Shown here: one piece after another, positions 1 through 7,518 of the stretch
Numbering within the stretch: the first letter of the stretch is position 1
How the letters are laid out: every line of letters starts with the position of its first letter
Assembly (NCBI GenBank): GCA_024330925.1
Contig: JANDJK010000004.1
Span: 1-64,000 of the forward strand
DNA from: Nitrospira sp.
GTDB lineage: Bacteria > Nitrospirota > Nitrospiria > Nitrospirales > Nitrospiraceae
Length of the DNA: 64,000 bases
Reading direction: 5' to 3'
The notes under the pieces: generated by a model
Database searches by the model: none
Seen by the model: the letters and a program-made list of their open reading frames with translations, nothing else
What the model was told of the DNA's origin: nothing
Program-made: the position numbers and the translations under genes

Positions 1-1242
1 GAGCCGTTCCAACGTTTGGAGGACGATGAGTTTCAAAGCATCCTGGGCGCTCAGACGTACCGAGGCATAGGACAGCACCCGTTCCATGTCCGCTTCCACT
101 TCCGAGGCTTTCGGGTCGTGGAGAAACGACACCAGCGGTTCGATGGCTGAGTCTCCAATGACGGTGAGCGCCGCCGCAGCCTTTTCGCGGAGCGACCCGT
201 CCTTGAGCAACATGATTAAGTCGGGGATCACGCGGGGATCGCGGAACTGACCGAGTGCCGTCGCGGCCGCCTCCTTGATGAGGGCCTCTTCGCTCACGAT
301 GCAGCCAGGAGTAGGTGAGCCCTGTTGCTTGATTCCCTTGCCCTTCAACGCATCGAGCACGGCGGGGAGTGCGCGTGCGTCACCGATCATACCCAACGAG
401 GCGATAGCGTGCCGTTTGACAGCGCCGTCTCTCATGGCTTCGATCAGGGCGTCAACGGCCCGCGGGTCACCGATCATGCCAAGTGCAATTGCAGCGTCCT
501 CGCGGACAGCTCGATCTGGGTCCTTGAGTGCGCCGATCAAGGCATCGACTACTTTGGGGGTCCGGACCCAAGTCCGGCCGATTTGGTAATCGGTGGTCAT
601 GCCGCCCAACGCACGGGCGGCGTGGCAACGGACGACAAAATCCTTGTCCGACAGATTCTCGATTAAGGCATCCACGGACGGTTCGCCGATGTACACCAAG
701 GCGGTGCCGGCTGTCTCCCGCACGATCTTGGATGAATCTCGAAAGAGTTTGATCAATGCGGGGACAGCTTTAGGATCGCCGATTTTTCCCAGCGCTTCCG
801 CCGCCGCGCTCTTCACCGCCCCGTCACGGTCGCGGCAAGTGATGATCAAGGCATCGACGGCCTTGGTCGTTTTGATGTTGCCCAACGCCTTGGCGGCATG
901 TTCGCGCACACGCCACCGTTCATCCTTGAGGGCGCTGATCAGTCGATCCAAAATGGCGGGTCCCATGCGGACGGCCGCTTCGACCGCCTGGTTGCGGACT
1001 TCCATGATGGGGTCGTTGAAGAGGCCGATGATCGCTTCGGCTGCCGAGGAGCTGCCGATTGCTCCAAGACCGCGAACGGCATGGGCGCGAACGGACCAAA
1101 AGTCGTCTCCACAGGCAGTAATCAAGGCGTCCCGTGTCGCAGGATCGGCCAGATCCGCCAAGGTTTTGGCCGCTTCCTCGCGCGTGGCGTCATCGACGTC
1201 TTCAAGCGCATCAAGCAAGTCTTGGAGCGTAGGAGAGGTCAT
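1..1242 (-). CDS. HEAT-repeat protein (PBS-lyase type repeats), C-terminus outside the window
   Basis: The reading frame is open from an ATG at 1242 down to base 1, so 414 codons are visible and the end is missing. The protein is a run of about 31-residue HEAT-like units with recurring motifs such as VRAHAVRGLGAIG, VREHAAKALGNI, VKSAAAEALGKIG and VREDAAIALGMIG. These alpha-solenoid repeats usually make protein-protein scaffolds, and no enzymatic motif is visible. There is no signal peptide, so a cytoplasmic location is likely. The start ATG overlaps the stop of the upstream gene by 4 nt (ATGA), so it is the third gene of an operon behind two exported proteins. The function is unknown; a role as adaptor or lyase-like chaperone would be guesswork. 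Confidence 0.9.
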   Translation of the reverse strand, partial: MTSPTLQDLLDALEDVDDATREEAAKTLADLADPATRDALITACGDDFWSVRAHAVRGLGAIGSSSAAEAIIGLFNDPIMEVRNQAVEAAVRMGPAILDRLISALKDERWRVREHAAKALGNIKTTKAVDALIITCRDRDGAVKSAAAEALGKIGDPKAVPALIKLFRDSSKIVRETAGTALVYIGEPSVDALIENLSDKDFVVRCHAARALGGMTTDYQIGRTWVRTPKVVDALIGALKDPDRAVREDAAIALGMIGDPRAVDALIEAMRDGAVKRHAIASLGMIGDARALPAVLDALKGKGIKQQGSPTPGCIVSEEALIKEAAATALGQFRDPRVIPDLIMLLKDGSLREKAAAALTVIGDSAIEPLVSFLHDPKASEVEADMERVLSYASVRLSAQDALKLIVLQTLERL

Positions 1243-1712
1243 CAAGGAGTCTGATCGTAGTACGAGTCCCGTTCTCCCCCGTGGGGGTACATCCGTTTGC
1301 ATCGGACAATAAGGGTCTGCGTGCCGCGTCCTTCGACACATTGGTCGAGCGATCGGGAGAACTCAAGCGTTCCGTCCAACGTGACAGTGAACGGAAAATC
1401 AAAGGTAAAGCTGATGAACTTGTAGTTGCCTGGCTTCAAAGACAGTTGGCGACGTTCTGATGTTTTGGGCGCGTCGAGCGATTCCGGATCGGATGCCCAA
1501 ATCGAGGGTGTGACGCCCGGCACTTGCCACCACGAGGTGGGAACCAGGCTCGTGGCATCGATGGTAATAAGGTGTTCTCGGAGATGGGCTGGCGGTGGGT
1601 TCCCGCCTGATGCAAGCCCCCCACTGATGATCGTCAGGCCGATCACGATCCCCTGCAAGGGATGGAAACAGTGTCTCAACAAACGGTCACGTAACATGGT
1701 GGTACGAATCAC
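1242..1712 (-). CDS. small exported protein of unknown function
   Basis: This 156-residue protein starts with GTG at 1712, overlapping the stop of the upstream gene (GTGA), and ends in an ATGA overlap with the HEAT gene. The N-terminus has basic residues followed by a hydrophobic stretch (IVIGLTIISGG), which looks like a signal peptide or anchor. The rest looks beta-rich (QLSLKPGNYKFISFTFDF, FTVTLDGTLEFS) with two cysteines near the C-terminus (DQCVEG and VRCKRM) that could form a disulfide. I recognise no family. Its position between a phosphatase-fold exported protein and a HEAT scaffold suggests a shared process, but that is inference only. Confidence 0.75.
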   Translation of the reverse strand: MIRTTMLRDRLLRHCFHPLQGIVIGLTIISGGLASGGNPPPAHLREHLITIDATSLVPTSWWQVPGVTPSIWASDPESLDAPKTSERRQLSLKPGNYKFISFTFDFPFTVTLDGTLEFSRSLDQCVEGRGTQTLIVRCKRMYPHGGERDSYYDQTP

Positions 1713-2707
1713 GGTTGACTAGTTTCGGCCGCAGAGTTGAGAAAAATTTCGTCGATTGGTTTACTGTCCCATTCGGTGTGGGTATCAAGACCAAGGATCC
1801 GCATGACGGTGGCGCCGGTGTCGATGATCGAGACCGGTTGGGTGATCACTTGACCGGCCTTGATACCGGCTCCTGAGGCGATCCATGGAATTGTTGGGAG
1901 CTCATGGGACGAGACCTCAGCGCCCGGGTCGAGCCCCTTGCCACTTAACGAAGTCACCACAACAGCCGTTCGCTCAGCGAGTCTGTGCTGTTGAAATAAA
2001 TCCAGTACTGATCGAATAGCTTCATCTACGGCGCGTAACGCCTGTTTGTACTCTTTTGAATCCCAACCGTGTGCGACTCCGGCCCGACCGGCTTCAGGAA
2101 GATGAATCAACAACAATTGTGGCATGCCCAAGGCGGCATGGCCGTAGCCATGACCGCTGAGGGCTTTTTCCATGTATTGCCGGATGTAGGTAATGAGCTT
2201 GGCTGAGTTACAGTCGGGGCGCAATGCGCCACAAAGTTGGTGGTCGGTATAGGGTGTTGGTTTGGCCAGTTGGTAGAGGGATTCATCCATGTAAAAGATA
2301 GCGCTATCTCGTCCTCCACTGACGTCGAGATAATCGAACAGACTAGGGGCCCGATAGTAGCCCCGACTCATTTCAAAGAAGTTCCACGTGATCCCATGTT
2401 TTTCCACTGGCATGCCGGTGATGAGGGATGCCATCGCCGGCAACCGAAGCGCTGGGGTAACGCCGGTAGCCGACCAGGTAACGGATCCTTTCTTGACCAG
2501 CTTGCTCAGGTTCGGCATGGGTCCATCCTTGAGGGAGTTCCGATCAAATCCTTCCAGCACGAAGAGAATGACATGTTCGGCTGATGCGGAGAGGGGCCTA
2601 CCATGGTCGGTGGTGGGTGTCGCTAGAGATGGAATGACAGTGACTGCCTGGGCAGTGATCAGCAGGGTTACTGTGAGAAAAAAGGGTTGCGAGAAAATAT
2701 GAGGCAT
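1709..2707 (-). CDS. alkaline phosphatase superfamily (type I phosphodiesterase-like) exported protein, probably catalytically degenerate
   Basis: The chosen start is the ATG at 2707, preceded by GAGGA at good spacing; in-frame starts at 2713, 2725 and 2758 (GTG) are possible. The product is about 332 aa, with an N-terminal hydrophobic signal (FFLTVTLLITAQAVTVI). The fold signature of the nucleotide pyrophosphatase/phosphodiesterase family is clear: VILFVLEGFD, then TPALRLPAMASLITGMP.EKHGI, then a VVVTSLSGKG segment and a late SSHELPTIPW stretch. At the usual catalytic sites the residues differ: E52 stands where the first metal-binding Asp is expected, R88 where the Thr/Ser nucleophile is expected, and LS where the Asp-His pair is expected. 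A phosphatase activity should therefore not be assumed. It heads a three-gene overlapping operon. Confidence 0.8.
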   Translation of the reverse strand: MPHIFSQPFFLTVTLLITAQAVTVIPSLATPTTDHGRPLSASAEHVILFVLEGFDRNSLKDGPMPNLSKLVKKGSVTWSATGVTPALRLPAMASLITGMPVEKHGITWNFFEMSRGYYRAPSLFDYLDVSGGRDSAIFYMDESLYQLAKPTPYTDHQLCGALRPDCNSAKLITYIRQYMEKALSGHGYGHAALGMPQLLLIHLPEAGRAGVAHGWDSKEYKQALRAVDEAIRSVLDLFQQHRLAERTAVVVTSLSGKGLDPGAEVSSHELPTIPWIASGAGIKAGQVITQPVSIIDTGATVMRILGLDTHTEWDSKPIDEIFLNSAAETSQP

Positions 2708-2943
2708 CGCCATTCCTCGTGGCATCGATGATGCATAGGATGTGAGCGCATACCGCACGATACCCTACCACGTGAATTTTCTCAAAGGCAAGATGACCTC
2801 CAGGTGGCTGATTTAGGAAGCTGCTGAGGAAGGCTACGAAGGCTACTTTGATTGGTTGTTGACGTTGCCGATGGTATGCTCAAACAGAACGAGTGGATCG
2901 AACACCAACAATGGAATCAAGAGAGCAGGGACCAGTCACAGCC

Positions 2944-3870
2944 ATGAAGGGGGGGCGAACTGCCAGAGTTGAGATGGTGAGCCTCCAGCAATTACGAGGC
3001 CGATGGGTGATCTGTCTGTGCAGTATCCTGTTGGGAGTCTCGCTCGTGCTTGAAACCTCGGTGTTTGCCGAGATTAGGACGGTTAGGGCTAGTGGGGAAT
3101 ATCGACTGAGAGCACGAGATACCAAAGAAGACGCCGGACGACTAGCTCTTGAGGCGGCCAAGCGCAACGCGCTGGAGCAGGTTGCGACCTATGTGGAAAG
3201 TGTCACGGTTGCCAGGGGCATGGATCTCACAAGGGATGACATCCGTACCTACACGGCTGGTGTTGTGCTGGTGCAGGATCAACGTGTGAGCTTTTTGGTA
3301 GAGGGAGACAGCATCATTGCGAAGGTCGATCTGGTGGCACAAATTGAGACGGAGGATGTAGTTCGGGCGATCGCGGCCTTGCGGGAGAATGAGGAGGCTC
3401 GAACGCAATTGGCGGCTCTGAAGCAGGAAACTGAACGGCTGCGGCAGGAGCTGGAGCGAGTCAATCGTGTCCAGACCAACGGGATGGCAGAGCAGGGGGA
3501 ATCATCGATGCGGCGACGCGAGATGGTTTATCGGGTCCAATCCAACGCGTTGGTGGCGCAAGCGTGGACCGACTGGGTATTGTCTCCAAGCGACCAGTCG
3601 TTGGACGGTTTGCGGTCAAGGGCCAACCTGGTCCGTTTGCTTGAGGCGGCACGCGCCATAGATCCCCAGAGTCCTCATGTCCTCCATGCCGAAAAGATGA
3701 TGGTCGGAGGTGAGCGTAATGCGGCCCCTAATCCTTCATCCTCTTCAGAACCGTCCGTTCGCAGGGCTGTCCCCCTACCACGCTATGAACTCGTTCCTGG
3801 GCCTGGCGCGTCTGATAAGCTCCATACCTTAAATGAGTTGATCTATCAGGTACCGCCTATGTCGCGGTAA
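2944..3870 (+). CDS. exported FlgT-N-like protein with coiled coil
   Basis: Several in-frame starts exist (GTG 2893, ATG 2911, 2944, 2974); 2944 is a compromise that keeps a basic region before the signal sequence CLCSILLGVSLVLETSVFA. The mature N-terminus (about 100 residues: EIRTVRASGEYRL, AKRNALEQVATYVES, VVLVQDQRVSFLVEGDSI, KVDLVAQIE) resembles the FlgT N-terminal/LPP20-type domain found in envelope proteins. A charged coiled coil follows (EEARTQLAALKQETERLRQE), then a region of unknown fold ending in a proline-rich tail. It is followed by a second, smaller protein of related style. Cellular role unknown; probably periplasmic. Confidence 0.7.
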   Translation: MKGGRTARVEMVSLQQLRGRWVICLCSILLGVSLVLETSVFAEIRTVRASGEYRLRARDTKEDAGRLALEAAKRNALEQVATYVESVTVARGMDLTRDDIRTYTAGVVLVQDQRVSFLVEGDSIIAKVDLVAQIETEDVVRAIAALRENEEARTQLAALKQETERLRQELERVNRVQTNGMAEQGESSMRRREMVYRVQSNALVAQAWTDWVLSPSDQSLDGLRSRANLVRLLEAARAIDPQSPHVLHAEKMMVGGERNAAPNPSSSSEPSVRRAVPLPRYELVPGPGASDKLHTLNELIYQVPPMSR

Positions 3871-3948
3871 GGTCGGTGAGTGAGGGGCGACAATCGGAAA
3901 GAAGCGACAGGTGCCGTAAGGAACAGAACCACGGAGGAGTTGAGTAGG

Positions 3949-4368
3949 ATGTGCAAAACTGGCGTGGTTGTTGTGTGGGGGGCAAGTGTGGTGGTGCTGG
4001 GAATATCGATGACGAGCTGGTCTGCTTCGGTGGAGGATCGGTATCCTGCCGATCAGTATTGGATTGGCCGAGGTCAAGGTGATTTTACCAAGGGCGGTGT
4101 CGTGTGCCGGCGGGTAGCCGAACTGGCAGCCCGCGCCGATGTAGCCAAACAGATTCGCGTGCTGATTAAAGAGCGTCTCACGGACCGGGTGCGTGAACGA
4201 TCAGGGCGCGAGCCCGAGCAGGATCTGGAGTTGATTCGGGAAGAAATTGTGGAGGAGTATCTGCAGGGAGTGGAGATTGTTGAGGTTCGTGTTGATGAGA
4301 AGAGTCAGGCCTGCTTTGCGACGGCGGTGATGGCCAAGAACCAGATCCTTCGCTCGACTGCTCGGTAG
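3949..4368 (+). CDS. exported LPP20/FlgT-like small protein
   Basis: The ATG at 3949 is chosen because it follows a GGAGGAG stretch and places a signal sequence (VVVVWGASVVVLGISMTSWSA) at the N-terminus; the frame itself is open further upstream to 3880. The mature part (about 110 aa) carries YPADQYWIGRGQG, ELAARADVAKQIRVLIKE and CFATAVMAKNQIL, a pattern typical of LPP20-like domains, where an alpha helix rich in Ala follows a short beta strand. No lipobox Cys is present. It lies 78 nt downstream of the gene ending at 3870 and probably shares its transcript. Function unknown. Confidence 0.7.
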   Translation: MCKTGVVVVWGASVVVLGISMTSWSASVEDRYPADQYWIGRGQGDFTKGGVVCRRVAELAARADVAKQIRVLIKERLTDRVRERSGREPEQDLELIREEIVEEYLQGVEIVEVRVDEKSQACFATAVMAKNQILRSTAR

Positions 4369-6213: not shown

Positions 6214-7518
6214 ATGCCGGTTGAGAATAATTTTCAGCATGATGAGCTGTCACGAAAAAATCCGGGTAACCGTTTAGGTGTGACGGAGGTGACAACTGTT
6301 GCGAAAGCTGAATCTCCTGCCTGGTATGAGGCCATGGCACAGTGGGGAAGCCTGTTGGTTGAAGCAGGAGTGCGCGCCCTTGTGTTTTTGCATGGATCCC
6401 TGCATGGGACTGATGTCTTTGGAGCCCAGCGGCTGGACGAAGCAGGGGGGGACAAGCGTGGCTATTCGCGGGGAATATCAGGGTTGGATGCCTTACTCTC
6501 CTTAATGCGTGAAGGAGAAAATGGCATCCCTCCGCTTCCTGAGAACAGAAGGCCACCGTTCGTCAATGATGGGGCGACTCAAGCCTGGCTTGATAAGGAA
6601 GTTGGCGATGCTGGGAATTTCACGAACGACTATGTCGCGCTGGCTTGCCGGGCTTTGAACAGACAAGGGCGACGTCCCCTGCATTGCAGTCGAGTGGTGT
6701 GGCGATCCGAACACCATCATCTAGGGAGGGCCGTTGCGGCGGTCGAATTGCTGGATTGGTTACAGTCCTTCTGCGAGCGCCATCATCTCGGTCTGGGGGA
6801 TCGGATTATGGTACAGGCCCATGGACAAGGGGGACTTGTTTTGGCTTTGGTCTCAAATCTCCTCTGCCCCAGTTCGATTACCGGTAGGCCTAGGCTGCTG
6901 GAGATTGTGGCCGAGTATGCGGTCCGTTCCCAACAGCCGCGGTTAGCGGTAGCGGTGGAACGCTTGACTCGCTTGTTGGATCGGGGGGTGGTCCTTAACA
7001 ACGTCCTCTTGGATGTCGTGACGTTGGGCACGCCGGTTCGTTATGGGTGGGACCCTTCCGGGATCGGTAAGCTTCTCCATATTGTCAACCATCGACATCT
7101 CCGCATAGATGGAAAAAGATGGTTGGCAAAAATGGAACTGCCGCAGATTACGATAGAGATGCCGGTGGCGTGGGGGGGCGACTATGTTCAAGAGTTAGCG
7201 GTGGCCGGCAGTGATGCCTTGCCAACCACGGAGGAGGCTCGAGAGGCCAATCGAGCAGTGTGGGAACTGGTTGAGCCGTATGACGGCTTTGAACGGTGGC
7301 TCGAATGTGCGCGCCGGGCAGTCCGGTGTCCATCCGAGGGGGGGTGCCTGTTGGTGGATTACAAAGACTGTACGGGATCGTCTCACGTTCAGGATCATTA
7401 TTACGGTCATGCCGTCTATACCCGGCGAGAGGTGATGTTATTCAATACTGCAGAAATCGTTCGCCGCCTCTACGGGGTTTCAGTGGAGCGTGGTGCGCCA
7501 TTGGCGGAAAAGCCGTAA
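6214..7518 (+). CDS. alpha/beta-hydrolase-fold protein lacking the nucleophile serine
   Basis: The 434-aa protein starts at ATG 6214 behind GAGGAG. It has the beta-strand/oxyanion motif ALVFLHGSLHG near residue 60 and a nucleophile-elbow-like segment IMVQAHGQGGLVLALV, but the lipase GxSxG is here A-H-G-Q-G at residues 202-206, so the serine is replaced by G204. A VVTLGTPVRYGWD segment follows, as in lipases around the strand after the elbow, and a DHYYGHAVY segment lies near the C-terminus. No signal peptide is evident. It stands alone, flanked by a long gap upstream and a divergently oriented small gene downstream. It may be a binding protein rather than an esterase. Confidence 0.7.
   Translation: MPVENNFQHDELSRKNPGNRLGVTEVTTVAKAESPAWYEAMAQWGSLLVEAGVRALVFLHGSLHGTDVFGAQRLDEAGGDKRGYSRGISGLDALLSLMREGENGIPPLPENRRPPFVNDGATQAWLDKEVGDAGNFTNDYVALACRALNRQGRRPLHCSRVVWRSEHHHLGRAVAAVELLDWLQSFCERHHLGLGDRIMVQAHGQGGLVLALVSNLLCPSSITGRPRLLEIVAEYAVRSQQPRLAVAVERLTRLLDRGVVLNNVLLDVVTLGTPVRYGWDPSGIGKLLHIVNHRHLRIDGKRWLAKMELPQITIEMPVAWGGDYVQELAVAGSDALPTTEEAREANRAVWELVEPYDGFERWLECARRAVRCPSEGGCLLVDYKDCTGSSHVQDHYYGHAVYTRREVMLFNTAEIVRRLYGVSVERGAPLAEKP

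Follow-up and report, generated by a model that had tools for sequence, protein, structure and literature searches.

Nitrospira carry out both nitrite oxidation and complete nitrification, and much of the biology of their envelope is, to our knowledge, uncharacterised. The locus described here raises the question of whether an exported Nitrospira protein that matches the nucleotide pyrophosphatase (NPP) family is still an enzyme. The window, which is the whole stretch of DNA analysed, consists of 64,000 nucleotides (contig positions 1-64000) of a draft genome of 2.44 Mb. The open reading frame, strand and coordinates that the original prediction had assigned to the gene were found to be correct and are given with its neighbours in Table 1. 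A limited literature search returned no paper joining Nitrospira, nucleotide pyrophosphatase and HEAT repeat, and none joining alkaline phosphatase superfamily, pseudoenzyme and periplasmic.

Table 1. Coordinates of the NPP-fold gene, its key codons and segments, and the neighbouring genes in the window
Feature	Position	Strand	Remarks
NPP-fold exported protein without the NPP catalytic/metal set	1709..2707	-	332 aa; start codon ATG at 2707
E52 codon, first NPP metal Asp position	2552..2554	-	E 89/89 f1; E 10/11 and D 1/11 f3; D 6/7 and E 1/7 f2
R88 codon, NPP nucleophile Thr position	2444..2446	-	R 89/89 f1; T 9/11 and P 2/11 f3; T 7/7 f2
L254-S255 codons, NPP Asp-His metal pair	1943..1948	-	LS 89/89 f1; L 11/11 f3; DH 7/7 f2
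Residues 121-160	2228..2347	-	Holds 12/28 positions that f1 and f3 have fixed and f2 lacks (4.0 expected); candidate for a remodelled pocket or an interface
Residues 181-199, insert of G-Y-G type that f2 lacks	2111..2167	-	4 more shifted positions in 181-200
sp156, small exported protein	1242..1712	-	No Pfam/NCBIfam family; start overlaps stop of NPP-fold gene
HEAT-repeat protein, runs past window edge	1..1242	-	ATG overlaps sp156 stop; orthologue at L031
Divergent neighbour, no family, N-terminal hydrophobic stretch	2893..3870	+	Near the gene in 105/117 f1 and 0/11 f3 loci
LPP20-family protein	3880..4368	+	88/117 f1 and 0/11 f3 loci
Conserved 434-aa protein, no family	6214..7518	+	63/117 f1 and 10/11 f3 loci

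Family assignment and active-site columns

An N-terminal hydrophobic stretch (best 15-mer mean Kyte-Doolittle value 2.02, at residue 11) precedes a match to PF01663 (type I phosphodiesterase/nucleotide pyrophosphatase), which spans residues 46-253 and scored 83.6 bits (cut-off 23; E 2.6e-23). PF00884 (Sulfatase) was also above threshold (30.7 bits, cut-off 25), and the nearest solved structures by sequence were those of the Xanthomonas NPP, with a best E of 4.5e-12. The Pfam match alone would label the product a phosphodiesterase, which is a caution for annotators. Structure models were generated for the NPP-fold protein (52 alignment rows; pLDDT 38.5, pTM 0.42) and for sp156 (16 alignment rows; pLDDT 39.7), both too low in confidence for residue-level claims. 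A Foldseek search with the former listed 50 chains, comprising sulfatases, phosphonate monoester hydrolase, phosphoglycerate mutase and NPP, none at E 0.001; from a model of such low confidence, this lends weak support to a predicted alkaline-phosphatase fold.

The metal site was judged from alignment, the key columns being placed by phmmer/hmmsearch alignment to the Xanthomonas NPP (2gsn, 7mw8, 7n1s). The NPP residues at issue are a metal Asp, a nucleophile Thr, an Asp-His pair and a second Asp/His pair, and the two-metal ligand set comprises Asp; Asp...His; Asp-His; His. E52 aligned with the Asp of 'IDGLR', R88 with the Thr of 'SLTFP' (Ala in 7mw8), and L254-S255 with the Asp-His of 'SDHG', which places the residues named in the original prediction on the metal Asp, nucleophile and Asp-His columns, as it had stated. 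The NPP 'VDEAGH' motif is also substituted, and the second Asp/His pair is gone. The window protein, with E52, G207, V211, L254 and S255, lacks the two-metal ligand set.

Conservation was assessed in 107 distinct homologues, of which 89 were from the family of the window genome (f1, including the paralogues L129 and L130), 11 from f3 and 7 from f2; f2, f3 and f4 denote other families within the same order. The pattern goes beyond chance: E-R-L-S was invariant throughout f1, where a nucleophile Thr/Ser is consequently absent, and the site was gone in all 11 f3 proteins (Table 1). Position 255 was Ser in all f1 sequences, Asn, Thr or Lys in f3 (8, 2 and 1 of 11, respectively), and His in all f2 sequences. 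Asp at position 207 and His at position 211 were found in 7/7 f2 proteins and never in f1 or f3. The His of the f2 'THGT' motif has no conserved counterpart, H268 being confined to the window sequence in the pattern table. The f2 homologues kept the NPP set, six strictly and one with Glu for the first Asp. Neither these intact relatives nor the conserved operon described below figured in the original prediction.

The aligned metal-site columns, together with the nucleophile column of f1, hold substitutes that are fixed and kept under purifying selection (see below); NPP chemistry is unlikely in a protein that has lost both Asp/His pairs as well as the nucleophile. Judged by its sequence, the pseudoenzyme is real and conserved, and the original claim of a conserved fold with conserved loss draws support at that level from the fixed loss in f1 and f3, the purifying selection and the family match. 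That claim had been staked against orthologs with an intact set. Homologues with such a set do occur in f2, within the same order, but they lie at non-syntenic loci and beyond the longest branch of the tree, so they illustrate an active-looking relative and are no proof of activity in the window protein.

Gene neighbourhood, extra copies and distribution

The genes are ordered NPP-fold gene, sp156, HEAT-repeat gene, with overlapping start and stop codons, and the HEAT-repeat product encoded in the window has no N-terminal hydrophobic stretch. Both partners were found on the strand of the NPP-fold gene in 116/117 f1 main loci (of which L001-L030 and L031-L110 in part cover the same genomes), in 11/11 f3 loci and in 0/7 f2 loci; at the one f1 exception, L084, the contig stops 128 bases past the open reading frame. 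Additional HEAT genes follow downstream in loci that were read (e.g., L095). A HEAT orthologue was present in 4/4 f2 genomes searched and sp156 in 6/8, in each case on a different contig from the NPP gene (draft assemblies). At four f2 loci (L180-L183) an sp156 relative stands ahead of genes for a dihydroorotate dehydrogenase and an FtsX/MacB permease, and in L182 an ABC ATPase was identified by Pfam upstream. In three f1/f3 genomes (L248-L250) a matching dihydroorotate-dehydrogenase/FtsX run, read from open reading frames, was without sp156. As regards the origin of sp156, the comparison of f2 with f1 and f3 shows a rearrangement and does not give its direction.

Further along the window, the conserved 434-aa protein carries a motif like the nucleophile elbow of alpha/beta-hydrolases with a conserved G204 in the place of Ser (71 distinct sequences). 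It is possibly a second pseudo-hydrolase by this motif; comparison with PDB sequences gave nothing significant.

Twelve loci with extra copies of the NPP-fold gene (L195-L206) were fetched. sp156 adjoins the gene in all of them, and none (0/12) yielded a hit to the HEAT protein of the window. Positions 52 and 88 were E and R in 12/12, with L-S, I-S or L-N at 254-255. By gene order, the pairing with sp156 extends over the main operon and all extra copies read. An exported-looking protein of ~800 aa is encoded at 10/12 of these loci (Pfam match in none of 3 tested), and a DabA-cluster gene at 5/12 (PF10070 in L198). Each half of the ~800-aa protein matches a gene of its own elsewhere in the order, and PAS/GAF histidine kinase and sigma-54 regulator genes lie near several of the loci. 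L199 and L200 look like near copies. A partial further copy (G051:C43:44177-44587), with one internal TAA, is located ~2 kb from an intact extra copy.

A homologue was detected in 91/98 sampled relatives at E 1e-5 (f2 homologues counted in), the seven without a match at this threshold being G029, G061, G064, G067, G070, G077 and G078, four of which are f4. At E 1e-10, 96/295 phylum-sampled genomes matched (f2 homologues again counted in), all of the same genus, family or order. A link of the operon to nitrite oxidation was sought in 29 genomes, with narH (TIGR01660) standing in for NxrB, and no clean association emerged. Matches to narH occurred in 25/29 genomes, including 6/8 f2 and 3/4 f4 (several weakly), and are not proven NxrB, as only one was above the family cut-off; the f3 genomes G087 and G089 had the operon with a weak narH match or none. 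In three other f3 genomes (G072, G086, G095), narH-like matches, possibly NxrB, lie ~11 kb from the catalytically dead NPP gene.

Evolution and competing explanations

A maximum-likelihood tree was calculated from 36 chosen rows (18 f1 including the window, all 11 f3, all 7 f2) and was rooted on f2 by choice, so that the direction of change is inferred. The groups f1 (93/84), f3 (98/98) and f2 (100/100) were recovered, and the longest internal branch splits f2 from f1 and f3. dN/dS for the window gene against six relatives was 0.077-0.120, with dS >1.4 in five of the six; the sole unsaturated pair, the window and L031, gave a dS of 0.59 and a dN/dS of 0.114. In total, 38 positions were fixed throughout f1, f3 and f2, and 28 were fixed in f1 and f3 but missing from f2. 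The concentration of the latter in residues 121-160 has a hypergeometric p of 8e-5, which is optimistic because the region was picked after the counts were seen. The Asp, Glu and His residues that are still fixed are E52, H104, D125, D128, D134, D141, E142, D155, H202, D228, D296, H310 and E312.

The constant sp156 pairing, the stretch of group-specific conservation and the purifying selection together suggest that the protein binds or scaffolds something in the envelope. The explanation that is favoured, and is considered reasonably probable, is that of an envelope, probably periplasmic, NPP-family pseudoenzyme that cooperates with sp156 as a binding protein or scaffold and not as a hydrolase. 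Loss of the catalytic site would predate the split between f1 and f3, which share E52 and L254, and R88 would have been acquired later, in f1. The NPP-fold protein and the co-translated sp156 would act jointly in the envelope, where the region that separates the former nucleophile from the central strands (residues 121-160 and 181-199) may have become a binding surface that holds a ligand or partner without hydrolysing it, and the main-operon HEAT proteins may serve the same pathway from the cytoplasmic side. In a wider version, which is rather doubtful as a whole, this would be a two-protein envelope module core to the Nitrospiraceae and a sister family: an NPP captured beside sp156 would have lost catalysis and gained a binding pocket, its duplicates would have been recruited next to the ~800-aa exported protein and, in 5/12 loci, genes for the DabA inorganic-carbon transporter, and the module would act as an envelope receptor or scaffold tied to the carbon or energy metabolism of nitrifiers.

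Several other explanations have to be set against the binding or scaffolding role. The protein might bind no ligand itself and be required solely, as a structural or chaperone subunit, to keep sp156 or some larger envelope complex stable or to get it exported; the pairing with sp156 in the main operon and in the extra copies, even without HEAT genes, fits this, but the clustering of group-specific conservation in 121-160 suggests a specific site, though one that could be the sp156 interface, and the subunit role is regarded as unlikely. Somewhat less probable still is an enzyme of altered chemistry, with a mono-metal or metal-free site on other conserved Asp, Glu or His residues. E52 could be a ligand, and the many fixed acidic and His residues would permit a shifted metal site; the Thr is retained in 9/11 f3 proteins. 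According to one source (PMC7576196), Glu at the metal can be an active-site residue in relatives (EptA Glu240, LtaS Glu255), and YejM, called a non-enzyme at first, was later reported to have Mg-dependent phosphatase activity. Against this reading, YejM is described there as retaining its Thr and an Asp, whereas the f1 and f3 proteins lack both Asp/His pairs at once and every f1 protein has Arg at the nucleophile position.

Two explanations remain. A misleading alignment, with the true catalytic residues elsewhere in the protein, could be entertained in view of the low-confidence structure model, but near the first Asp, the Thr and the Asp...His motif the f2 sequences need no gaps to be aligned and carry the canonical residues in those columns, which makes such an error very improbable. 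Nothing but the missing site speaks for a decaying gene. Decay is refuted by the open frames, an internal stop having been found, among the matches listed, in one partial extra copy only, by a dN/dS of ~0.1 and by the positions fixed across f1, f3 and f2, and its probability is negligible.

Comparison with known systems

Among regulatory members of the alkaline phosphatase superfamily, YejM/PbgA/LapC, a regulator of enterobacterial LPS synthesis, is comparable only in the way it may work, being an envelope protein with a regulatory role. It is described as having a five-helix membrane domain and keeping its Thr, whereas the window protein has just its N-terminal hydrophobic stretch before residue 46, and the YejM model NF038282 scored 16.6 bits against it (cut-off 825). 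The Xanthomonas NPP (2gsn, 2gso, 2gsu, 7mw8, 7n1s) and the vertebrate ENPPs share the PF01663 family over residues 46-253, but in the window protein the alignable metal-ligand columns and, in f1, the nucleophile are replaced. The f2 homologues L122-L128 have 34-39% identity to the window protein, with C159/C166 and E312-W313-S315-F322 in common; unlike the window protein, they keep the NPP set, sit outside the sp156-HEAT operon and are without the insert around 185-193. Set beside these intact relatives, the window protein can show by what steps an NPP ceased to be catalytic, and the strictly conserved, predicted non-catalytic enzyme fold with its fixed partner constitutes a testable gene pair.
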